A stretch of DNA of 16,144 nucleotides from Pseudomonadota bacterium (lineage in GTDB: Bacteria > CALINM01): positions 1 through 16,144 of the forward strand of contig JAOAGA010000038.1 of NCBI GenBank assembly GCA_026415985.1. Reading direction: 5' to 3'. Position 1 is the stretch's first letter, and every line of letters begins with the position of its first letter. Positions 2,049-15,461 of the stretch are shown piece after piece. A model generated the notes under the pieces. That model did no database searches. It had not been told where the DNA came from and saw only the letters and a list, made by a program, of their open reading frames with translations. The position numbers and the translations under genes are program-made.

Positions 2049-2068
2049 TATGGTAACTTTTTACCATA
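2049..2068 (+). promoter_or_regulatory. Palindrome upstream of hdrA, candidate activator (UAS) site
   Basis: An 8-bp perfect inverted repeat, TATGGTAA / TTACCATA (2049-2056 and 2061-2068), has a 4-nt spacer. A third half-site, CGGTAAGG, starts at 2072. The palindrome centre lies about 145 bp upstream of the start point predicted from the sigma-54 promoter at 2177-2192, a usual distance for an NtrC-type enhancer site. The rest of 1890-2040 is very AT-rich, and I see no gene in it. Confidence 0.4.
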
Positions 2069-2141
2069 TTTCGGTAAGGATTTATCAAAAAACCTGTTCT
2101 TTAACCTTTTATCAGTATATTGACATTCTCTTATCTTTACC

Positions 2142-2176: not shown

Positions 2177-2192
2177 TGGCATATACATTGCT
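2177..2192 (+). promoter_or_regulatory. Sigma-54 promoter of hdrA-mvhD
   Basis: TGGCAT-N5-TTGCT matches the sigma-54 consensus TGGCAC-N5-TTGCW at every position except the last base of the -24 element. It is preceded by T and followed by TTTT, as in strong sites. The invariant GG (2178-2179) and GC (2190-2191) have the required spacing. The predicted start near 2203 leaves a leader of about 43 nt with a good ribosome-binding site at its end. The site is intergenic and correctly oriented. Control by an NtrC-type activator follows from the known behaviour of sigma-54; which activator is not known. Confidence 0.72.
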
Positions 2193-2245: not shown

Positions 2246-5200
2246 ATGGCTCTTTCAAAGATAAGCTACCTTAAGGCTATATCAGGAGGAAAGGACTTTG
2301 GTGATGTTCTTGTTGTAGGTGGCGGTATTTCTGGGCTTCAGGCAAGTTTAGATCTTGCCAATGCAGGCTTTAAGGTTTATTTAGTGGAAAAGGAGCCTTC
2401 AATTGGTGGGCATATGGCTCAGCTTGATAAGACCTTTCCCACCAATGAGTGTTCTATCTGAATACTGTCACCTAAGCTGGTCGAGGTCGGCCGGCATCCA
2501 AATATAAAGGTGTTCAGTTATACAGAGATTGATGCCATTGAAGGTACAGCGGGCGATTTTACCGTGAGGCTTTTAAAGAAGCCAAGATATGTAATTCAGG
2601 AAAGGTGCACCGGTTGCGGTGTCTGTCAGGAGTACTGTCCTGTTAAGATTCCCGATGCCTTTAATCAGGAGATCTCAAAAAACAAGGCAATCCATATATA
2701 TTTTGCTCAGGCAATACCGCTTGTTGCCTATATAAGTAAAGAGTGTCTCTATTTAAAGGAGAAAAAGTGTGGTATCTGTGAGAATGTATGTGAGAACAGG
2801 GCTATAGATTTCACTCAAAAGGAAGAGAAGGCAGAGATTAAAGTAGGTGCAGTAATTTTATCATCCGGTTTTACCCCCTTCCCTGCGGAGCTCCTTTCCG
2901 AGTATGGTTATGGGAAGTATAAAAATGTAATAACAAGCATGGACTATGAGAGAATACTTAGCTCAACAGGACCCTATGAGGGTGAGATTAAAAGAACTTC
3001 TGATTTGAAACATCCTAAAAAGATTGCCTGGATTCAGTGTGTTGGCTCTCGTTCAGTAAAGGAGCCATCAAAGAGTTATTGTTCTTCAGTGTGTTGTACC
3101 TATACCCAGAAGCAGGTAATCTTAACTAAGGATCACATACATGAGGCGGAATGCACAGTTTTTCATAATGATATAAGGGCCTTTGGTAAAGATTTTGAGA
3201 GGTTTTATCAAAGGACCGCAGGCTTATCGGATGTTAGGTTTATTAGAAGTTATGTAACTGTATCAAGGGAAGACAAAGAAACAGGTAATATTTTCATAAG
3301 GTACTCCACCCCCGATAGAGGTGTTATAGAGGAAGAGTTTGAGATGGTTGTGCTCTCCGTTGGGCTGAATCCCCCGAAAGATTCAGAAAATATCGCTAAA
3401 AAATTTGGTATAGAGATTAATCATCATGGATTTGGGAAAACCGATGCTTTCATCCTTGTAGAGACAAATAAAAAGGGTATCTTTATAAGCGGTGCTTTTA
3501 TTGAGCCCATGGATATTCCTCAAGCGGTCTTTACCGCAAGCTCAGCCAGTGCAAGATCTGGTGAGCTTTTAATGAAGAGAAGGGGTAAGTTATCCACAAA
3601 AAGGGTTTATCCCTTAGAAAAGGATGTGTCTAAGGAAGAGCCGAGGGTTGGTGTGTTTGTATGTGCCTGCGGTGCCAATATAGGCAGGGTTGTAAATATT
3701 AAAGAGGTGGCAGATTATGCAAAGACCTTGCCCTATGTGGTCTATACCCAGACACAGCTTTTCTCCTGCTCTACTGACTCGGCAAAGCAAATTACCGATG
3801 CAATAAAGGAGCACAATCTGAACAGGGTAATCGTTGCTGCATGTACACCGAGGACTCACGAACCTACTTTTAGGGATTCTCTAAGAGAGGCGGGCTTGAA
3901 CCAGTATTATGTTGATATGGCAAATATAAGAGAGCATTGTTCCTGGGTGCACTCAAAGGATAAAGACTCTGCAACAAAGAAGGCCAAGGATTTAGTTAGA
4001 AAATCCGTTGCAAGATCTCTGAAATTACAGGCTTTAGAAGAAATCAGTCTTCCTGTGGATAAAAGAGCTCTTGTAGTTGGTGGTGGTGTATCGGGCATGA
4101 ATTCCGCTCTCTCATTGGCAAAACAGGGGTTTGAGGTATATTTAATCGAAAGGGAGAGGGAGCTCGGCGGGAATGCAAGATTTATCTATAAAACACTTGA
4201 AGGCTTTGATGTTCAGGAGTATCTGAAAAATCTCGTATCAGAGGTTTATAAAAATCCCCTTGTCCATATACGTTTGAGCTCAGAGATTGTTGAAGCAACC
4301 GGGTATGTAGGTAATTTTCTTACGAAAATAAGGACAGACAAAGGAAAGATTGAAGAGATAAAACACGGAGCAGTAATAATCGCAACAGGTGCAAGGGAGT
4401 ATAAGCCCAAGGAATACCTTTATGGAGTATCAGGGAATGTGGTAACAAATAGAGAGCTTGAAAGGCTATTATACGAGAGGGATGATAAAATTTTAAACTC
4501 AGAAAATCTTGTTATGATCCAGTGTGTGGGATGCAGAAATGAAGAGAGAAACTACTGTTCAAGAATATGTTGTAGCCATTCTGTCAAAAATGCCATTGAG
4601 TTTAAGAAAATAAATCCGAAAGGTGATGTTTACATACTTTTCAGAGATATGAGAACTTACGGTCTTAAAGAAGATTATTACAGGCTTGCAAGTGAGATGG
4701 GGGTTAGGTTTATCAGGTTTGAGCGGGAAAATGGCAATATTCCGGAAGCAGAGGAAGTGTCAGAGGCAGGTAAAAAGGTTATAAAGGTCAGAGTTTTCGA
4801 TCCAGTTTTACAGAAAAGGTTAGAATTAAGCGCTGATATTTTAGCCCTTGCAACTGCGGTTATTCCTAATGAGGATGTATATGATATAGCGGGCTTTTTT
4901 AAAGTCTCAACAAGTATAGATGGATTCTTCAAAGAAGCTCATGTAAAGCTAAGACCCGTTGATTTTGGAACAGATGGAGTCTATCTATCTGGTATTGCCC
5001 ACTATCCTAAGTTTATAAACGAATCGGTTAGTCAGGCTTTGGCATCTGCAAGCAGAGCGGTAACGTTACTTTCAAGCGATACTGTTTCTGCGTCTGGTTC
5101 AATCTGTGAGGTTGAAGAGAAAAAGTGTATTGGCTGTGGTGCCTGTGCAGAAGTTTGTTCATACTGCGCAATTGAGCTTTATAAAACAAACAGGGGGATG

Positions 5201-5365
5201 AAGGCAAAGGTAAATCCTGTACTTTGTAAAGGTGACGGGCTTTGCAATGCGGTATGTCCGACCTATGCTATACAGCTAAAACATTTTACCGATGAGCAGT
5301 TAGTAAGTGAGATAGATAGTGCATTGCCAGAGAGGGTAATAGAAAAGATAAAGAAGGCAGGGTAG
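2246..5365 (+). CDS. hdrA: HdrA-like FAD/Fe-S electron-transfer subunit with selenocysteine, 1039 aa
   Basis: This is a large cytoplasmic flavin and iron-sulfur protein of the heterodisulfide reductase A family, the electron-bifurcating hub of Hdr complexes. An in-frame TGA at 2459-2461 falls at codon 72 in C69-S-I-U72-ILSPKLVEVGRHPN, where HdrA normally has CSxC. The frame and homology continue unchanged, so TGA is read as selenocysteine. Domains: FAD-binding GGGISG (25-30); ferredoxin-like Cys clusters (121-132, 175-185); cysteine region IQCVGS to CSSVCC (264-284); an internal HdrA N-terminal-type domain starting near 467 with CACGAN; a second FAD-binding site GGGVSG (612-617); a second cysteine region (758-776); two C-terminal 4Fe-4S motifs (961-975, 994-1005). 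HdrA is usually about 650 aa, so this is an HdrA module joined to a full HdrA. The second module lacks the CSxC/U site. The ATG at 2246 has AAGGAGG (2234-2240) at 5-nt spacing; the TTG at 2243 is too close. mvhD follows after 44 nt. Confidence 0.9.
2459..2461 (+). other. In-frame UGA, predicted selenocysteine codon (HdrA Sec72)
   Basis: The TGA lies in a conserved HdrA motif (PTNECSI-U-ILSPK) at the position of a conserved cysteine. The reading frame is open on both sides with no shift, and the protein family continues immediately after it. HdrA is a known selenoprotein in some methanogens. Decoding needs selA, selB, selC and selD, none of which is in the window. Confidence 0.88.
2476..2495 (+). 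promoter_or_regulatory. Bacterial SECIS-like hairpin of hdrA
   Basis: GCUGGUC (2476-2482) pairs with GGCCGGC (2489-2495), giving 7 bp including two G-U pairs, around the 6-nt loop GAGGUC. The loop begins 21 nt after the UGA and starts with G, within the accepted bacterial SECIS geometry. It contains AGGUC, as does the SelB-binding loop of E. coli fdhF. No bulged U is obvious in the stem. Confidence 0.7.
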
Positions 5366-5372
5366 GTAAAAA

Positions 5373-5390
5373 TTTAGATTTAGGTTGAGA
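5373..5390 (+). repeat. Three degenerate TTTAGG hexamers
   Basis: TTTAGA, TTTAGG and TTGAGA run in tandem between hdrA and mvhD. With the preceding A run they match the beginning and end of the longer hexamer array at 12637-12666, so the two sites look like short and expanded versions of one element. Confidence 0.55.
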
Positions 5391-5409
5391 TAAAAAACAG
5401 GAGGTATAG

Positions 5410-6234
5410 ATGAGCAGTATTTTTAAGCCAAATATTATTGGCTTTGTTTGCTACTGGTGAGGGTACGGGGCTGCAGATTTAGCTGGAGTTTCCAGACTAC
5501 AATACACAAGTGAGATAAGACTAATAAGGGTAATGTGCACAGGGCGCATTGACCTTGGCTTTATAGCCCGTTCATTTTATAACGGTGCAGATGGAGTTTA
5601 TATTGCGGGATGTAGATTAAACGAGTGCAGTTATATTACCCACGGAAATTATTACGCTCTGAATATGACCCTGCTTTTTAAAAGAATTATGGAATACATA
5701 GGGCTGAACCCTAAAAGGCTTCAGCTTGAGTTTATGACCTCAAGCGATGCCCAGTATTTCTCGGGTTCTGTCAATGACTTTGTTGAGAAAATAAGAAAGC
5801 TTGGACCTTTAGGAGATAAAGAAGGTTTATCCGATGAAGAGATAAAAGAAAGGCTATATAAAATTATAACACTCATACCCTATATTAAGATTGCTGAAAG
5901 AGAAAGGCTCAGACTAAGAATCAATAACCCCGAGGAATGGGAGAAAATCTATACTTTAGAACATGTAAAAAACCTCATTGAGAATACACCCTCCTACTGG
6001 ATAGATCCTGAAAAATGCTCTGCCTGCACCCTTTGTGCCCAGAGATGTCCTGTTGATGCCATAGATGGTGGGAAGAACAAAATTCACATAATAGATCAGG
6101 AAAAATGTATCAAATGCGGGAACTGCCTTTTAGTCTGTCCAACAAAATTCAGTGCAGTTCAGAAACTCACAGGCAAGCCGGTACCTCCGCCAATCCCTGA
6201 GGAAAAGAGAATTAAGGTTAGGCCTTCAAGCTGA
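5410..6234 (+). CDS. mvhD: MvhD-like iron-sulfur subunit fused to a 2x[4Fe-4S] ferredoxin, selenocysteine-containing, 274 aa
   Basis: MvhD/VhuD (FlpD) proteins carry a [2Fe-2S] centre and bring electrons from a hydrogenase or formate dehydrogenase to HdrA. The ATG at 5410 has an ideal AGGAGG (5399-5404) 5 nt upstream. The frame meets TGA at 5458-5460 (codon 17) in the family motif C14-Y-W-U17, normally a CxxC, and then continues as GADLAGVSRLQ-type MvhD sequence (here GYGAADLAGVSRLQY). Other family cysteines are Cys43 (MCTGRID), Cys68 and Cys73 (GCRLNEC). The C-terminal part (about 200-250) adds two 4Fe-4S motifs, CSACTLCAQRCP (203-214) and CIKCGNCLLVCP (233-244), resembling the ferredoxin tail of NuoF/HymB-type subunits. 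It shares an operon with hdrA. Its stop lies 4 bp from the convergent metallopeptidase stop. No hydrogenase, HdrB or HdrC gene is adjacent, so the electron donor and acceptor are unknown. Confidence 0.9.
5458..5460 (+). other. In-frame UGA, predicted selenocysteine codon (MvhD Sec17)
   Basis: The TGA replaces the second cysteine of the CxxC (CYWU) in the MvhD domain. The upstream segment has its own ideal ribosome-binding site and MvhD-like sequence, and the same frame is open downstream. VhuD, the methanogen counterpart, is a known selenoprotein. Confidence 0.88.
5480..5499 (+). promoter_or_regulatory. Bacterial SECIS-like hairpin of mvhD
   Basis: CUGGA (5483-5487) pairs with UCCAG (5491-5495) around the loop GUU. 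A lower stem UAG/CUA (5480-5482 with 5497-5499) is separated by one bulged A (5496). The loop begins 27 nt after the UGA and its first base is G, as expected for bacterial SECIS elements. Confidence 0.65.
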
Positions 6235-7947: not shown

Positions 7948-9435
7948 TTGAAATTTTTCAGAAAGCTAAAGATAAGGTACAAGATCTTAAGTATTGTCTT
8001 GCCTTTAACTATTATTCCCATAGTTATTTTAAGCCTCATCATAGGGTATATAGCCACAGACAAGGCATATAAAAGTATTACAAAAGTCAGCAAGGATGAC
8101 CTAAATCATATAGCCTTTTTCACTGTTGATTTGTTAAATGCCTATTTGGGTGAAGATATTTCAGAGCAGCTAAGACAAAAGGCGTTTATTGATATGAAAA
8201 ATATCATCAGAAGTAAAAAGGTTGGTGATACGGGCTATATATATATAATTGATATGGAAGGCAATCTAATTGTTCATCCTGCCAGAGAGGGCGATAATAT
8301 AAAAGATGCCACAGATTCTGATGGCAATCATTTTATAAAAGAGATGATCCAGAATAAAAACGGATGGATCAGGTACCCCTGGAAAAATCCCGGAGAAACT
8401 GAAGCAAGGTATAAGATTGTCAGATATATCTTTTACGAACCGAAAAACTGGATTATAGCGGTGGGGTCCTATGAAAATGAGTTCTACAGTGAGGCTGAAG
8501 GTATAAAAAGATACATTCTGACAAATATGATATTAACTCTTCTTGTATTTGTCATTTTAGGGGTTGCCCTTAGTGTTTACGTATCAGAAAAACTTACGGA
8601 ACCAATATATAAAATAATTGAGGCAGTTAGAAACGTAAAGAAAAACAAGTTAGATGAAAAGGTCTATATTGATAGTGGAGATGAGTTGGCAGAGCTTGCC
8701 GATAATGTGAACAGAATGATGGATATTCTCTCAAAACAAAAAGAGCTTGAAAAAACACTTAACGAGCAGTCAAAACTTGCCTCACTGGGTGTTCTCGCCT
8801 CTTCTGTAGCCCATGAAGTTAATAACCCTTTGGGCGTAATACTCGGCTATCTGACATTTTTAGAGAGCAAGCTTAATAAAGAAGACAAGATCAGCGAGTA
8901 CATACTGGAGATGAAAAAGGAGTGTCAGCGTTGTAAAAAAATTGTTGAGAATTTTCTTAATTTTGCAAAAATACCAAAGCCCGACTTTCAAAAAGTCAGT
9001 ATTAATGAGCTCTTGGAAGAGATAATAAGTTTTGTATCCAATCATCCGGAGATAAGGGATATTGAGATAGAAAAATCTTTTGATGATTCTCTCACGCCGA
9101 TATTGATAGATCCCGATCAGATAAGACAAGTGGCTTTAAATCTGATTTTGAATAGCGTAAGTGCTATAAAAGAAAAAGGTGGAAAAATAACAATTAAAAC
9201 AGAGAAAGGGATAGAAGGTTTTGTAAATATTATCTTTGAAGACAACGGTGAGGGGATTCCGGAGGAGAATCTTAAAAAGATTTTTGAACCCTTTTTCTCC
9301 ACCAAAGACAAAGGAACAGGGCTTGGACTTGCGATAGTAAGACAAATTATCAAACAACATTTAGGAAATATAAGCATAGAAAGTAAGGTCGGTGAAGGGA
9401 CCAGAATTTATATTACACTGCCTATAAGTCACTGA
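7948..9435 (+). CDS. Cache-domain sensor histidine kinase, 495 aa
   Basis: This is a membrane-bound two-component sensor. It has a transmembrane segment at about 13-34 and an extracytoplasmic single-Cache (sCache_2-like) domain at about 45-180, with VGDTGYIYIIDMEGNLIVHP as its signature. A second transmembrane segment (about 189-212) leads into HAMP (about 213-265) and a HisKA domain with phospho-acceptor His289 in AHEVNNP. The ATPase domain has an N-box NLILNS (398-403), a G1 box DNGEGIP (432-438) and a G2 box GTGLGLA (456-462). Translation starts at TTG (7948-7950): GGAGGGG lies 4 nt upstream and no suitable ATG is near. The next gene, its NtrC-type partner, follows after 1 nt. sCache_2 domains often bind small carboxylates, which agrees with the nearby OFA transporter; the ligand itself is inferred. 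Confidence 0.94.
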   Translation: MKFFRKLKIRYKILSIVLPLTIIPIVILSLIIGYIATDKAYKSITKVSKDDLNHIAFFTVDLLNAYLGEDISEQLRQKAFIDMKNIIRSKKVGDTGYIYIIDMEGNLIVHPAREGDNIKDATDSDGNHFIKEMIQNKNGWIRYPWKNPGETEARYKIVRYIFYEPKNWIIAVGSYENEFYSEAEGIKRYILTNMILTLLVFVILGVALSVYVSEKLTEPIYKIIEAVRNVKKNKLDEKVYIDSGDELAELADNVNRMMDILSKQKELEKTLNEQSKLASLGVLASSVAHEVNNPLGVILGYLTFLESKLNKEDKISEYILEMKKECQRCKKIVENFLNFAKIPKPDFQKVSINELLEEIISFVSNHPEIRDIEIEKSFDDSLTPILIDPDQIRQVALNLILNSVSAIKEKGGKITIKTEKGIEGFVNIIFEDNGEGIPEENLKKIFEPFFSTKDKGTGLGLAIVRQIIKQHLGNISIESKVGEGTRIYITLPISH

Positions 9436-9436
9436 T

Positions 9437-10804
9437 ATGAATAAGATATTATTAATTGATAATGACGAAGGTTTGCTACGTTTAATGAAGGCTGTTCTTC
9501 AGGATGAGGGGTATGCTGTTTTGGCATTTAATAATCCTGTCGAGGGATTGTCTAAATTGAATGAAGAAAATATATCACTCGTAATAACAGATATAAAGAT
9601 GCCCGAGATGGACGGTATTGAAGTTCTTGAAAAAGTTAAAAGTTTCAACTCAACAATACCGGTTATACTTATAACTGCCCATGCAACCATTGATATATCA
9701 ATACAGGCATTGAGAATGGGTGCAGAGGATATAATACTAAAGCCCTTTGAATCACCTGAGCTGGTTTTAAGGGTTAAAAATGCCCTCAAAAACAGCATGA
9801 TACTAAAAGAAAATATTAAACTGAAAGAAGAACTTTCAGGAAGATTTAATTTCAACAATATTATAGGAACATCAAAAAAAATAATGGATGTTATTGAAAA
9901 GGTTAAGAGAGTTGCCCTTACCGATATACCTGTTTTAATAACCGGAGAGTCGGGTACCGGAAAAGAGTTAATTGCTAAAGCTATCCATTATAATTCAAGC
10001 AGAAAAGGTAAGCCCTTTATAGCGGTTAACTGCGGAGCAATTCCTCAAAACTTAATAGAAAGTGAGCTCTTTGGCCATAGGAAAGGTGCCTTTACAGGTG
10101 CCTTAGAAGACAAAAAAGGACTGTTTTTTGAAGCCGATGGCGGGACAATCTTTCTTGACGAGGTGGGTAATCTTAATTTAGAAAGTCAAAAACAACTTCT
10201 GAGAGTTTTGCAGGAAAAGGAGATCAGAAGATTGGGAGATACAAAAAATATAAAAATAGACGTGAGGGTTATATCCGCAACCAATATTAATTTAAAGGAA
10301 GGCATTAAAGATGGTAAATTCAGGGAAGACCTGTACTATCGGCTGAACGGTATAACTATCAATATGCCTCCTTTGAGAGAGAGGAAAGAAGACATACCCT
10401 TTCTGGTTTCACATTTTATAAATAACTATAATAAGCTATACGGAAAATCCTTTGCGGGAGTTAGCCCTTCGGCAATGGCAGTTTTGCAAAACTACGATTG
10501 GCCCGGTAATGTAAGGGAACTTAAGAACATTATTGAAGCAAGTCTTGCTCTCTCTCAGGATGATAAGATAATTGATAAGGAGATTCTCGGCCAGTTTGTA
10601 GAGTTTGAGGGACAGGCAGATTTTCTGGATACAAAGGATGACGGCGATTATGCCCGGTCATTACAAAGTTTTGAGAAGGAATATTTTCTGAATCTTCTGA
10701 AAAAAACAAACTGGGATATTGAAAAGGCAGGCGAAGTTGCAGGGATAAATGTCGCAACTATCTACAGAAAGATAAAAAAATACAGGCTTAAAAGGGACCT
10801 CTAA
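9437..10804 (+). CDS. NtrC-family sigma-54-dependent response regulator, 455 aa
   Basis: Three domains are complete. The receiver (1-120) has acidic residues Asp8, Asp10 and Glu11, phospho-acceptor Asp52 in [11 protein letters not shown], Thr80 and Lys102. The AAA+ domain (about 140-370) has Walker A GESGTGKE (170-177), an intact GAFTGA loop (217-222) and Walker B GGTIFLDE (235-242). The C-terminal Fis-type helix-turn-helix lies at about 415-450 ([19 protein letters not shown]). The intact GAFTGA shows that it should activate sigma-54 RNA polymerase. It is co-transcribed with the sensor kinase (1-nt gap). A near-consensus sigma-54 promoter lies 173 bp beyond its stop, before the small protein and MFS genes, and is its most likely target. 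Whether it also controls the sigma-54 promoter of hdrA is unknown. Confidence 0.95.
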
Positions 10805-10833
10805 TCTTTCTCGCATTTCTGTAAAAAATCCTG

Positions 10834-10848
10834 AAAGATCGTATCTTT
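10834..10848. promoter_or_regulatory. Inverted repeat after the regulator gene: UAS or weak terminator
   Basis: AAAGAT-CGT-ATCTTT is a perfect 6-bp inverted repeat with a T run at its right edge (10846-10850). It may be a weak terminator for the kinase-regulator operon. Its centre is also about 160 bp upstream of the predicted sigma-54 start point (near 11003), which suits an activator site. A second palindrome, CAATAA-G-TTATTG, lies at 10934-10946. Confidence 0.35.
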
Positions 10849-10976
10849 TTACCCATTAAATAAATACCAGATATTTTCTCAATAATCTCTTTTGCAACTT
10901 TGCGAACAAGATTAAAAAAATACTTTTCTTGCACAATAAGTTATTGATATTAAAAAAATAATTAAATTGGACAAGT

Positions 10977-10992
10977 TGGCACATCAGTTGCC
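10977..10992 (+). promoter_or_regulatory. Sigma-54 promoter of the small protein-MFS transporter operon
   Basis: TGGCAC-N5-TTGCC has a perfect -24 element (with a preceding T) and a -12 element matching TTGCW except for the last base. GG (10978-10979) and GC (10990-10991) are correctly spaced. The predicted start near 11003 gives a leader of about 24 nt that contains the ribosome-binding site GGAGG (11018-11022). It lies directly downstream of a gene for a sigma-54 activator. Confidence 0.82.
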
Positions 10993-11026
10993 TTTGTAAG
11001 GACATCTCTTTTTTGCTGGAGGTAAA

Positions 11027-11284
11027 ATGGAGGCACTGTTTAACAAAATTATAAAAGCGGGATATATAAGGGATGAGATTATTTGCCCCTTTTTTGGTCT
11101 CTCCGATAACATTTGCAATACAGGCTGTGGATATGTTTCAAAAGGAGAGGCAAGAGACATAGTCAAGAAATGTCTTAGCTCTTTTGATAACTGTGCCAGA
11201 TATTTGGAGCTTACCGAAAGTTCTAAAGGCAGTTCTGTTGCAAATTTAAAATCAAAGTTACAGAGCTTGATAAAAATTTTTTAA
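11027..11284 (+). CDS. Small cysteine-rich protein of unknown function, 85 aa
   Basis: I do not recognise this protein as a named family. It is soluble (no transmembrane segment or signal peptide). Five cysteines lie in the central part: Cys20 (ICPFFG), Cys30 and Cys34 (ICNTGCGY), Cys49 (KKCLSS) and Cys56 (NCARYLEL), spaced C-x9-C-x3-C-x14-C-x6-C. This resembles short zinc- or cluster-binding motifs with a final C-x6-C followed by aromatic residues, found in several small bacterial proteins; that comparison is inference. The ATG has GGAGG at 4-nt spacing. It is the first gene after the sigma-54 promoter, and the MFS gene follows after 10 nt, so it is probably co-expressed with the transporter and may be a regulatory or accessory partner. 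Confidence 0.8.
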   Translation: MEALFNKIIKAGYIRDEIICPFFGLSDNICNTGCGYVSKGEARDIVKKCLSSFDNCARYLELTESSKGSSVANLKSKLQSLIKIF

Positions 11285-11294
11285 GGGAGGAGAA

Positions 11295-12566
11295 ATGAAA
11301 AAAGGTTGGTTAGTAGTTTTTGCAGGTATGGGGTTAAATTTAGCATTGGGCGTTTTGTATGCATGGAGTGTATTCGGAAAACAGTTTTCAGAAGCCATCG
11401 AGAAGGGGGGTTTTGGATGGAGTAAGACTGATTCGGCAATTCCCTACACTGTAGCAATCGCCTGTTTTGCCATTATGATGGTCCCTGCGGGAAGATTGCA
11501 GGATAAGTTAGGTCCAAGACTTGTTGCTACATTAGGAGCTATTTTTACCGGTTTTGGTTTATTTATAACCGGCTATGCCTCACCGGATAATATTATCCCT
11601 GCTATAATTGGCTTTGGTATAATGGCTGGAACGGGTTTTGGATTAGGATATGCAGCAGCAACACCCGCAGCAGTCAAATGGTTCCCACCGGAAAAAAAGG
11701 GATTAATTACAGGAATAGTTGTGAGTGGCTTTGGATTAGCACCGGTTTATATTGCTCCTTTAAGCAAGTACCTGCTTTCAACCTATGGGATAAATAACTC
11801 TTTTAAAATTCTTGGCGTTTCATTTTTAATCTTTAGCGTTTTGTTGTGTCAGCTTATAAATAATCCTAAAGAGATAGCCAAAAGCAGTTCTAATAATCCC
11901 AAGAAATCAGTTTCTATTGACTATACCTACAGAGATATGTTAAAAACACCTACTTTTTACCTGCTTTGGATTGAGTATGCCTGTGCAGCGACAGCAGGTC
12001 TTATGATAATAGGACATTTAGCTAAGATAGTATCTTTACAATCAAACAATACAATTAAGATAGGCTTTCTTTTTGTAGCTCTTCTGGCTATATTTAATGC
12101 CTCGGGAAGATTAATAGCGGGAATAGTCTCAGATTATATCGGAAGAATTAAAACTTTATTTATTGTATGTCTTGTTCAGGCAGTTGCCATGTTTTTCTTC
12201 TCTACCTTTTCTACCATCGGGCAGTTTATACTTGGTTCCGCAGTAGTTGGTTTTTGTTATGGTGCCTGTCTTTCTATATTTCCATCTGTAACCGCAGATT
12301 ATTGGGGAGCCAAAAATTTAGGTTTTAATTATGGCATTGTTTTTACAGCCTGGGGAGTAGGGGGTGTCTTTGGACCAATCCTTGCAGGGAAAATTGCTGA
12401 TGCCACAGGAACTTATGGAACTGCCTATTTAATATCCTCGGCTTTACTTGTTTTTGCAGCGGTTCTTACCTTTGCAACTAAAGCACCGGAAAGACCAATG
12501 ATATTTGTACCTCAGACAGAGGAAAAACCTGTATTACAACCTCAAACCAGCGGGGAGGGGGTATAA
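11295..12566 (+). CDS. MFS transporter, oxalate/formate antiporter (OFA) family, 423 aa
   Basis: This is an inner-membrane major facilitator with about 12 predicted transmembrane segments and a central cytoplasmic loop near 190-212. OFA-type features include NLALGVLYAWSVFG (15-28), the A-loop AGRLQDKLGPR (65-75), KWFPPEKKGLITG (128-140), a second loop GIVSDYIGR (276-284), and a well-conserved stretch from YGACLSIFPSVTADYWG (322-338) to AWGVGGVFGPILAG (352-365). Family members exchange or take up small monocarboxylates and dicarboxylates such as oxalate, formate, lactate or pyruvate; the substrate here cannot be read from sequence. The start has GGGAGG upstream at close spacing. With the small cysteine protein it forms a sigma-54-driven operon just downstream of a Cache sensor and NtrC-type regulator, which suggests substrate-induced uptake of a carboxylate. 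Confidence 0.92.
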   Translation: MKKGWLVVFAGMGLNLALGVLYAWSVFGKQFSEAIEKGGFGWSKTDSAIPYTVAIACFAIMMVPAGRLQDKLGPRLVATLGAIFTGFGLFITGYASPDNIIPAIIGFGIMAGTGFGLGYAAATPAAVKWFPPEKKGLITGIVVSGFGLAPVYIAPLSKYLLSTYGINNSFKILGVSFLIFSVLLCQLINNPKEIAKSSSNNPKKSVSIDYTYRDMLKTPTFYLLWIEYACAATAGLMIIGHLAKIVSLQSNNTIKIGFLFVALLAIFNASGRLIAGIVSDYIGRIKTLFIVCLVQAVAMFFFSTFSTIGQFILGSAVVGFCYGACLSIFPSVTADYWGAKNLGFNYGIVFTAWGVGGVFGPILAGKIADATGTYGTAYLISSALLVFAAVLTFATKAPERPMIFVPQTEEKPVLQPQTSGEGV

Positions 12567-12578
12567 ATAATAGATTAG

Positions 12579-12626
12579 AGGGAGTGAGAGGAAAAGGGTT
12601 TCAAAAATCCAGCCTCAGCACTCCCT
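12579..12626. terminator. Long imperfect hairpin between convergent genes, possible terminator
   Basis: AGGGAGTG (12579-12586) pairs with CACTCCCT (12619-12626). After a small internal loop, GAGG (12588-12591) pairs with CCTC (12613-12616). An inner stem, GGGTTT with AAATCC-type pairing (12596-12610), closes the top. There is no T run on either side, so this may be a non-canonical terminator or a small repeat element rather than a classic terminator. Confidence 0.4.
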
Positions 12627-12636
12627 TGAATCAAAA

Positions 12637-12666
12637 TTTAGGTTTAGGTTTAGGTTAAGGTTGAGA
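12637..12666. repeat. Five degenerate TTTAGG hexamers
   Basis: TTTAGG x3, TTAAGG and TTGAGA run in tandem between the convergent MFS and glnE genes. The array begins with AAAATTTAG and ends with TTGAGA, as does the shorter copy at 5373-5390. The function is unknown. It may be a spreading or slippage-prone intergenic element. Confidence 0.65.
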
Positions 12667-12704
12667 AAAATCTTTCTTGTAGAGTTTTCATTGACTGGTT
12701 CTCC

Positions 12705-15461
12705 TTACTGAGACAGAAAAACCTGATTAAAAATATTTCTTATCTCCCGTTTAATATCAGACAGGTAATCAAAAAAGTCTTCTTTTTTCATACAAATATT
12801 CAGATTAACAATGATTTCTGATATTATCTCTTCATCTTTCAGAAAGGAGTTTCTGGAAAAACCTGATATTATCCTGAGGTTTCTCTCTATTATCTTAAAA
12901 AAATTATAGTTTTTTTCCAAAAAGTCTGCCTTGTCGTTTGATAATAACCCCATATCCCTTAGGGCAGAAAAATTGTCCTGTGGTTTAAAGCTTCTTAAAC
13001 CGGGATGATGCCCTCCGTAGGCAAGTTTGTAATATTGAATAATAAACTCGATATCCATTAATCCACCCGCACCGGTTTTAATATCTATTATATTTCTTTC
13101 CCGCTCTCTTACCGCTAACTCATCGTCGATCTTTTTTTTCATTGAATAAATTTCTCTTTTTAAAAAGTCTTTATCATAATTTGACTCGTAAAGAATTTTT
13201 GTAATCTCAGCTGTAACCTTTTCGCTAAAAGGTGTAGTTTCACCAAGCACTCTCGCCCTTGTTAATGCCTGCTTTTCAAAAATCCAGGAAGTTTTATGGT
13301 ACTCTCTGAAATTATTAAAGGTTGTAACAAGCGGTCCCTGACTTCCCGTAGGTCTTAATCTCATATCAACCTTATAGAGCTCCCCCTCTCTTGTTACCAT
13401 AGTAAGAGCTGAAATAATTCTCTGCATTAATTTTGAGTTATAAAAACCCGCATTTATATCCTCACTTTCATAGATAACAATTAAATCAATATCTGAGAAA
13501 TAGGTCATTTCATAGCTTCCTAATTTACCCATTCCTATGAAAGCAATGTCCTCATTAACTAAACCATATTTTTCCCCGATGATGTCTTTGCAGAGTTCAT
13601 AAACTATCAAAAGTGATGCTTCTGCTAAGTTTGTAAGGAAGAGTTCTATCTCGTAGGTGTCAATCAACCCGTAGCTTTCCATTATACCAATCTTTAACCA
13701 CTCACTGTTTTTAAACTGTCTGAGAAGACGCATCTTCATCTCAAAATCAGGAGCAGATGAGACAAGCTCTTTCAGGTAGTTGTAATAGGAGCTAAAATTT
13801 TTTCTGTCAATGGTGTCCTCTGTAATGAGAAACTCTAATGTTTCCGGGTAGTTAATGAGTATTCTGACAAGATAATTTCCCAAAAAAAAGGCGTTGGCTA
13901 TAAAGTCAATAGTGTTTTTATTCTCAACAAGAAGAGGCAGATAAATAGGGTTTTTTATTAACCTGTTAAAAAACTCCTCCATCAGAAGAAGATGTTTTTT
14001 CTGGACACCTTTGTTTGAAACAGATTTAAAGAGAAGTAAGATGAATTTTCTGAAATAACTGCGATACTTGGAAGGGATTTTTGCCTGTTTCTGAGCTAAA
14101 TTGTCGATGATAAAATTAATCTCCTCTGAAATTTTTAAACCTGTCTCAAAAAAAATTGTTTTCAGATAATTTTTATCAAAATCATCACTTTCAGCAAAAA
14201 CTTTCTCAATTTGTTTCTCTTTAGAATCATCCTGAAAGAGGGATCTGAAAAGCTCGTTAACCTGTAATCTTATTTGGTTTAATTTAGTGTTAAAACTTTT
14301 CCGGTCCATCTCCATTAACTTAATTAACCTTTCAAATCCATCTCCATCGGGGATATTGTATCTTTGCGATTCCTCATCCATCTGAATATAGTTTTCTGTA
14401 TTTCTTAAAAAGAGGTATGAGTTTTTTAGATTTTTGCCTGTCTCTTCTTCAAGAAATTTGTGTTCCGTTAGCAGATCAATTGCTTTTGAGATATTCCCTT
14501 CTCTTATAAGTTTATTCTTCCCGCCATTTATTATCTGAAAAGTATAAACAAAAAATTCAGCCTCTCTTATGCCACCTCTTCCCAGTTTAATGTTAATACC
14601 TTCCTTATCCTTCCTTGTGCTTTCCAAATCTATCTTATTTTTTAGCTCCTTTAAATCTTTTATCATTGAAAAATCCAAATATCTTCTGAAAATATATCCC
14701 TCGAGCTCGTTTTTCAGTGTATCGTAGATATTTGAATCACCGCAGATAAATCTCGTTCTCAAAAGGGCTAATCGTTGCCATGTTTCTCCGTATAAATAAT
14801 AGTAGTTAAGGAAGGCAGAGGCTGACATTGCAAGAGGGGAATATTTGCCACCGGGCCTTAAATCATTATCAACCCTGTATAAAAAACCCATATCTGTCTT
14901 CTGAGATAATAACTGATTAATCTTAACTGCCCATTTATTATATTTTTCTACGTTTTCTAAGTTATCATCATTGTAAACATAGACAATATCTATATCTGAA
15001 CTAAAATTAAGCTCCATGGAACCTAATTTTCCCATAGCTATTATTGTTAAGGGGCTCAGATCCCTGTAAAGATTATTCTTAGTATATTCATAGATGCCAT
15101 TTACAATGGTAATTGCCAACAGAGACTGCTCGTTTAAGGTTGTCTCTATAGATTGTCTTTGAAAAAGGTCCCTTGCTATCAATTTTAAAAACTCTTTATA
15201 TTTAAGTATCCTGATCTCTCTTGAAAACTCATCTTCCTTTTCAAGATTGATGATTTTGTTTACTTCGTCGTTAATCCTATCGGAGTTGAATGAGTAATCG
15301 GTGAAAATTTCTTTTAAAATGGGTGAAGGCAACCTGTTTATTATCCAGAAAGAAAGAGGAGAGAAGCTGGCTAAGTGAGAAAAAAACTCCTTTTCTTTCT
15401 CATCAATATCTTTTATATTTGAGACAAATCTGTTATATAACCTTTCATCTATGATAGGCAT
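12705..15461 (-). CDS. glnE: Glutamine synthetase adenylyltransferase/adenylyl-removase, 918 aa
   Basis: GlnE is the bifunctional cytoplasmic enzyme that adenylylates (inactivates) and deadenylylates glutamine synthetase in response to nitrogen status through PII. Both nucleotidyltransferase domains are intact: GSMELNFSSDID in the N-terminal adenylyl-removase half (147-158) and GSYEMTYFSDID in the C-terminal transferase half (648-659). Each is followed by its family signature, GRGGIREAEFF and GAGGLMDIEFI. The length is near the usual 900-950 aa. The frame opens to a GTG at 15506, but I choose the ATG at 15459-15461 (MPIIDERLYN), because it overlaps the upstream gene by only 17 nt and starts at family-like sequence; its ribosome-binding site (AGGT) is weak. 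Translational coupling to the upstream membrane-protein gene is likely. glnA and glnB are not in the window. Confidence 0.94.
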   Translation of the reverse strand: MPIIDERLYNRFVSNIKDIDEKEKEFFSHLASFSPLSFWIINRLPSPILKEIFTDYSFNSDRINDEVNKIINLEKEDEFSREIRILKYKEFLKLIARDLFQRQSIETTLNEQSLLAITIVNGIYEYTKNNLYRDLSPLTIIAMGKLGSMELNFSSDIDIVYVYNDDNLENVEKYNKWAVKINQLLSQKTDMGFLYRVDNDLRPGGKYSPLAMSASAFLNYYYLYGETWQRLALLRTRFICGDSNIYDTLKNELEGYIFRRYLDFSMIKDLKELKNKIDLESTRKDKEGINIKLGRGGIREAEFFVYTFQIINGGKNKLIREGNISKAIDLLTEHKFLEEETGKNLKNSYLFLRNTENYIQMDEESQRYNIPDGDGFERLIKLMEMDRKSFNTKLNQIRLQVNELFRSLFQDDSKEKQIEKVFAESDDFDKNYLKTIFFETGLKISEEINFIIDNLAQKQAKIPSKYRSYFRKFILLLFKSVSNKGVQKKHLLLMEEFFNRLIKNPIYLPLLVENKNTIDFIANAFFLGNYLVRILINYPETLEFLITEDTIDRKNFSSYYNYLKELVSSAPDFEMKMRLLRQFKNSEWLKIGIMESYGLIDTYEIELFLTNLAEASLLIVYELCKDIIGEKYGLVNEDIAFIGMGKLGSYEMTYFSDIDLIVIYESEDINAGFYNSKLMQRIISALTMVTREGELYKVDMRLRPTGSQGPLVTTFNNFREYHKTSWIFEKQALTRARVLGETTPFSEKVTAEITKILYESNYDKDFLKREIYSMKKKIDDELAVRERERNIIDIKTGAGGLMDIEFIIQYYKLAYGGHHPGLRSFKPQDNFSALRDMGLLSNDKADFLEKNYNFFKIIERNLRIISGFSRNSFLKDEEIISEIIVNLNICMKKEDFFDYLSDIKREIRNIFNQVFLSQ

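Follow-up and report, generated by a model that had tools for sequence, protein, structure and literature searches.

Two consecutive genes on the forward strand of a 16,144-nucleotide contig from a bacterium of the Pseudomonadota (JAOAGA010000038.1, termed the window in its full length) each contain a single in-frame UGA, read here as selenocysteine (Sec), at a conserved cysteine of the family to which the protein belongs. The first encodes an HdrA-type protein and the second an MvhD-type protein fused to a ferredoxin domain (PF02662 FlpD, 147 bits, plus Fer4); each UGA is followed by the hairpin of a Sec insertion sequence (SECIS), and the pair lies behind a sigma-54 promoter (Table 1). An earlier note on this DNA, made from the letters alone, had described such a pair in an apparently bacterial host, and its coordinates, the alignment of both UGAs with cysteine, and the bacterial origin are all confirmed. 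Comparison with related genes indicates that the pair is most likely no generic HdrA/MvhD adaptor but a member of the BamE/BamF branch in class II benzoyl-coenzyme A (CoA) reductase, the tungsten enzyme that breaks aromatic rings anaerobically.

The genome from which the window comes (G000, in which it is contig C93) comprises 1.57 Mb in 161 contigs and is 84% complete; its nearest relative (G001), from the same family, is 91% complete. Relatives, at least 580, were drawn from a scan over 84,980 species genomes, and the counts of loci given below are among those kept from the matches listed.

Table 1. Features of the selenoprotein gene pair and its promoter region in the window
Feature	Positions	Strand	Description
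Putative activator site	2051-2087	+	Two palindromic boxes, TGGTAACTTTTTACCA (2051-2066) and CGGTAAGGATTTATCA (2072-2087)
Sigma-54 (-24/-12) promoter	2177-2192	+	TGGCATATACATTGCT; the window has no other perfect match (0.03 expected); conserved ahead of the ortholog in G001
hdrA-type gene, best named bamE	2246-5365	+	1039 amino acids, Sec72; two FAD/thioredoxin-reductase-like halves plus Fe-S domains
In-frame UGA, Sec72 of BamE	2459-2461	+	Codon 72; Cys at the aligned position in Cys homologues
SECIS hairpin of bamE	2477-2494	+	CUGGUCG-AGGU-CGGCCGG; cross-species conservation
mvhD-type gene with 2[4Fe-4S] ferredoxin domain, best named bamF	5410-6234	+	274 amino acids, Sec17
In-frame UGA, Sec17 of BamF	5458-5460	+	Codon 17
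SECIS hairpin of bamF	5483-5495	+	CUGG-AGUUU-CCAG; stem invariant in 35 genes

Decoding of the UGA Codons

The two UGA codons occupy the place of the second cysteine of the HdrA motif CSxC and of the MvhD motif CxWC, and at both corresponding positions the solved HdrA/MvhD-type chains 9sfi_A and 9sfi_K show X, a non-standard residue. By homology to the chains of 5odc and 9sfi, each Sec would be expected to sit at or near a redox center. The UGA of bamE recurs in the G001 ortholog and in 38 further genes of the BamE clade described below, and that of bamF is kept at the same position in 38 related bamF genes. The Sec pair of G001 is 84% (BamE) and 79% (BamF) identical to that of the window at the amino acid level, and comparison of the two Sec-type hdrA genes reveals strong purifying selection, with a nonsynonymous divergence (dN) of 0.11 and a synonymous divergence (dS) near saturation.

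A search of the window genome for the machinery of Sec insertion, as the earlier note had proposed, recovered selA (378 bits), selB (373 bits), and a tRNA-Sec with the anticodon UCA. A different genetic code, in which UGA would be a sense codon throughout, was considered and ruled out: UGA is an ordinary stop in other genes and at the end of bamF itself, so that the code is not altered.

The hairpins that directly follow the two UGAs are conserved across phyla beyond what chance would produce. Across 37 Sec-type hdrA genes of several phyla, the codons at +7 (GTC) and +8 (GAG) from the UGA never vary (100%), whereas of the other conserved degenerate codons in the gene only 0.6% attain the 95% level, and Cys-type hdrA genes show no such fixation. 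All stem cells of the bamE hairpin pair (252/252), with a compensatory change from C-G to A-U at one stem pair in three sequences, and the mvhD hairpin, CUGG-N5-CCAG, is unchanged across 35 genes. Between the window and G001, synonymous changes almost vanish after both UGAs (binomial P of 0.006 and 0.0009). Folding of the single window sequences against shuffled ones gave no significant result (z of -1.5 and -1.0), so the case for the SECIS elements rests on cross-species conservation; an Rfam scan of the window returned no match at the gathering threshold. As judged from sequence, both genes are real selenoproteins in a genome with the capacity to decode Sec.

Assignment to the BamE/BamF Branch

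In a quickly run tree of 86 proteins, the window HdrA falls inside a clade of HdrA proteins from bamBCDEF operons (SH-aLRT 100), to whose operon-encoded members it is approximately 60–66% identical. This BamE clade comprises 60 rows, of which 40 have Sec and 20 have Cys or were unread. The architecture agrees with this placement: the window protein has the double HdrA organization of some 1000 residues, and the gene after it encodes an MvhD domain with a 2[4Fe-4S] ferredoxin. Wherever the site is readable, loci of the clade with a Sec-type BamE also have a Sec-type BamF, and Cys-type BamE is found with either form of BamF. The earlier note had remarked on the ferredoxin fusion of this pair; the fusion is indeed present, but it is a general trait of BamF, found in bam operons, and no special feature. 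Likewise, its description of a stand-alone adaptor is retained in part, in that the pair is likely electron-bifurcating with an unlinked partner, but the tree and the operon context of its relatives place it in the BamE/BamF branch and not among generic adaptors.

Of the BamE-clade loci, 49 extend far enough upstream, and 47 of these have bamD there, mostly in operons of the order bamB-bamC-bamD-bamE-bamF, and the two exceptions (L097 and L102) both have a Cys-type bamF. These two loci, from Desulfocarbo indianensis and Desulfosarcina cetonica (approximately 10001-13900), hold BamEF-type pairs with no bamBCD within 10 kb upstream. Two further loci, L095 and L111, have two BamE-BamF gene sets in neighboring bam clusters. 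The window pair lacks such an operon setting, as neither bamB, bamC, nor bamD is found on its 16-kb contig or in the examined flanks of the G001 ortholog, where the Sec pair is spread over two contigs (L057 and L058).

The bam Cluster of the Nearest Relative

A separate bam cluster does exist in G001 (L059), with the gene order B-C-E-F-D. Its BamB scores 994 bits against the crystallized Geobacter BamB (4z3w), with the next family at 205 bits, and its BamB, BamC, and BamD retain every invariant cysteine. The Cys-type BamE of the cluster is missing approximately 190 residues (corresponding to 458-649 of the window protein), and two of its invariant Fe-S cysteines are changed, one to Tyr and the other to Phe, a loss seen in 0 of 52 references. 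The cluster BamF has a frameshift, an internal UGA where its relatives have none, and Ser at the position of a ferredoxin Cys of the Sec copy. With both genes damaged in this way, the Sec pair elsewhere in the genome is the only intact BamEF found in G001.

G001 also has oah/bamA, and the same contig carries a bzd-type class I benzoyl-CoA reductase (BzdQ, 437 bits). This type of reductase is ATP-dependent; its BzdQ scores above the cut-off, and its genes are noted in the stretch 1642-17604 of locus L199 (G001 contig C50). Its presence in a genome that has class II bamB as well is, to our knowledge, a rare combination.

A Promoter Shared with Benzoyl-CoA Genes

The sigma-54 promoter that the earlier note placed ahead of the pair proved to be a perfect site. 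Within 235 kb of G000 and G001, six sites match the strict pattern TGGCAYRNNNNTTGCW, although, as the stretches scanned were chosen and are rich in aromatic genes, this is not a whole-genome count. The six sites precede the Sec pair in both genomes, bamB, bzdQ, oah, and an operon for an Fe-S protein, thiolase, SDR, hydratase, and had. All six share palindromic boxes resembling TGGTTA-N4-TAACCA, spaced 20–23 bp apart and situated some 80–125 bp upstream of the -24 element; beyond the window, this two-box element is found at five promoters, those of bamEF, bamB, bzdQ, and oah in G001 and of the thiolase-had operon in G000.

A leave-one-out profile scan over 228 kb supports the element. Every held-out site exceeds all unrelated ones, the lowest true site scoring 24.8 bits and the highest unrelated site 19.5; the window site reaches 30.2 bits, slightly under the five training sites, with the next site at 16.4. 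Since it has the same sigma-54 and two-box sites as bamB, bzdQ, oah, and had, the window pair is placed in the benzoyl-CoA regulon of the family. A tandem heptamer, ACCTATC, in 4.9 copies (2139-2172) lies in the interval that separates the two-box element from the sigma-54 site and was not seen in the examined upstream stretches of the other promoters.

Partner Genes and a Proposed Mechanism

No hdrB, hdrC, or hydrogenase genes lie beside the pair in the window, as the earlier note had observed, and genes of these kinds occur elsewhere in the genome. For the unlinked partner that it suggested, the genome offers two candidates: the gene for a BamD, a protein of HdrBC type, and a cluster of the order hdrC-hdrB-hdrA. 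The single BamD of the window genome is 86% identical and orthologous to that of G001 and is cut at base 3 of contig C150, so that any upstream bamB-C-E-F genes would fall in the assembly gap. The had gene (493 bits, against a curated cut-off of 339) lies in an operon with thiolase, SDR, and enoyl-CoA hydratase genes. Two [NiFe]-hydrogenase large subunits are also encoded elsewhere in this genome; no Sec-containing formate dehydrogenase was seen, the molybdopterin matches being a complex-I-type gene and one other. The hdrC-hdrB-hdrA cluster stands together with malate dehydrogenase, fumarase, and succinate dehydrogenase/fumarate reductase genes (L066, 5756-12888, contig C84), its hdrA being cut by the contig end.

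BamDE have been described as HdrA-type and related to HdrABC, and BamF as akin to the electron-transfer subunits of hydrogenases (PMC12016498, PMC13328260), and class II benzoyl-CoA reductase is thought to push electrons to approximately -650 mV at its tungsten site by bifurcation (PMC12096430). From these published relationships and this model, the pair would most likely be the Sec form of the bifurcation module, with BamD and BamBC supplied in trans. We put at about 0.8 the probability that Sec-BamEF is such a module, provided in trans to BamBCD under control of the benzoyl-CoA regulon.

On this reading, the pair would supply an ATP-independent, tungsten-containing class II reductase with its two electron-transfer subunits, one HdrA-like and one MvhD-like, both in Sec form and encoded apart from bamBCD. 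Sigma-54 polymerase and an activator bound at the two boxes would transcribe it along with other benzoyl-CoA genes, and SelB, acting with the two SECIS hairpins, would insert Sec72 and Sec17. Electrons may enter BamF at its [2Fe-2S] site and ferredoxin domain and pass to BamE, whose two FAD halves would split them: those of very low potential would travel by way of BamD towards the BamBC tungsten site, and the rest would go to an acceptor of higher potential. With less assurance, but on balance favored, is the further proposal that a Sec-BamEF from outside the operon replaced its Cys-type BamEF. A megadalton reductase of aromatic rings would then be built from parts encoded at two sites, and retention of the enzyme would have made the pathway selenium-dependent in this family.

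Neighboring Genes

Positions 1-249 of the window hold the TusA end of a sulfite-reductase-TusA fusion, a NIR_SIR-TusA gene that also precedes the Sec pair of G001 (L057, 2634-4982); in the window, it is separated from the pair by a minus-strand gene of alkaline-phosphatase-like type. Downstream, 7948-12566 encodes a Cache-domain histidine kinase, an NtrC-type response regulator, an 85-residue open reading frame, and a transporter of the major facilitator superfamily of L-lactate type (430 bits, cut-off 320). No link between these genes and the pair is claimed, because the sigma-54-like site of the transporter at 10977 has one mismatch and its upstream sequence shows no two-box element; they probably form a separate regulon. 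A hexamer repeat, TTTAGG, in 4.3 copies (12637-12662) lies between two convergent genes.

Alternative Explanations

Several observations weigh against the assignment to a benzoyl-CoA reductase in trans. The genes bamB, bamC, and bamA (oah) were not found in the window genome, which is 84% complete in 161 contigs; the decayed cluster copy is known from one draft assembly; the clade of the window protein is basal in a quick tree and includes one member that is long and odd in composition, the G001 cluster copy; and the hdrC-hdrB-hdrA cluster offers another possible partner. The pair might instead serve that cluster, confurcating between succinate/fumarate, ferredoxin, and another carrier, inasmuch as hdrC and hdrB directly follow sdhCAB-like genes at the end of their contig and the partners of HdrA/MvhD proteins may be unlinked. 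This appears quite unlikely, as the cluster already has its own hdrA, the window HdrA belongs to the BamE clade, and the promoter of the pair is that of the benzoyl-CoA regulon, no such site having been found near the sdh-hdr genes. Also unlikely is that the pair acts as a selenium-dependent isozyme alongside an intact Cys-type BamEF, switched by selenium supply as in some methanogen Sec/Cys pairs. Both types of copy are present in G001, and a Cys-type copy of the window genome may lie in the assembly gap before contig C150, but the damage to both cluster genes makes a working alternative in G001 improbable.

The presence of the sulfite-reductase-TusA gene upstream of the pair in both genomes might point to an HdrA-linked sulfur enzyme. 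Such a role is very improbable, however, given that in each genome the pair stands behind a sigma-54 promoter of its own, that the opposite-strand gene separates the two in the window, and that the association is absent in relatives outside the family. Finally, the UGAs could be true stops or sequencing errors in pseudogenes, since a stop at these positions would truncate both genes and bamF does terminate in UGA. To this we give almost no credence: the same UGAs occur in G001 and approximately 40 related genes, the SECIS codons are invariant, SelA, SelB, and tRNA-Sec are present, and dN/dS is low.

Relation to Known Systems

Work by Peters et al. (2004) on Sec proteins of Desulfococcus multivorans grown on benzoate is referred to by other authors. 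In the class II benzoyl-CoA reductase (BamBCDEFGHI, with BamGHI as the NAD-type module) from Geobacter metallireducens and D. multivorans, the subunits BamE and BamF have the same double-FAD HdrA, MvhD-ferredoxin fusion, and bamE-bamF order as the window pair, which differs from them in lying outside a bamBCD operon, in having Sec in both subunits, and in the decay of the operon copy in its nearest relative. A Sec-containing BamE was reported for D. multivorans in 2016 (PMC5109826), and double HdrA proteins are classed as type II (PMC12054007).

Sec-containing HdrA and MvhD (FrhD) proteins have been known in bacteria since 2006, and the HdrA-FrhD(MvhD)-FrhG-FrhA operon of methanogens and Syntrophobacter likewise has adjacent Sec forms with Sec at the same cysteines (PMC1794560). 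The window, in contrast, has no adjacent hydrogenase genes, and its HdrA is of double length and belongs to the BamE clade. Within the MvhAGD-HdrABC complex (PDB 5odc), HdrA can be aligned with stretches in each half of the window HdrA, and chain D with the window MvhD. Unlike that complex, the pair has no coenzyme M/B context and has an extra FAD half and a ferredoxin; HdrB, HdrC, MvhA, and MvhG are absent from the window, and the hdrC-hdrB genes elsewhere in the genome have their own hdrA. Three points are new here: the pair lies apart from the operon, the operon copy of the nearest relative has decayed, and a regulon element has been recognized.

Significance

Orphan HdrA-MvhD pairs in metagenomes are not easily interpreted. 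Here, one such pair is tied to aromatic-ring reduction by its clade, by the decayed operon copy of a relative, and by a shared promoter element, and the regulon motif can be used in finding further unlinked Bam parts. If the proposal is true, the pair would represent a natural swap of the electron-bifurcating module of benzoyl-CoA reductase and would offer a way to test what two selenocysteines contribute in comparison with cysteine.

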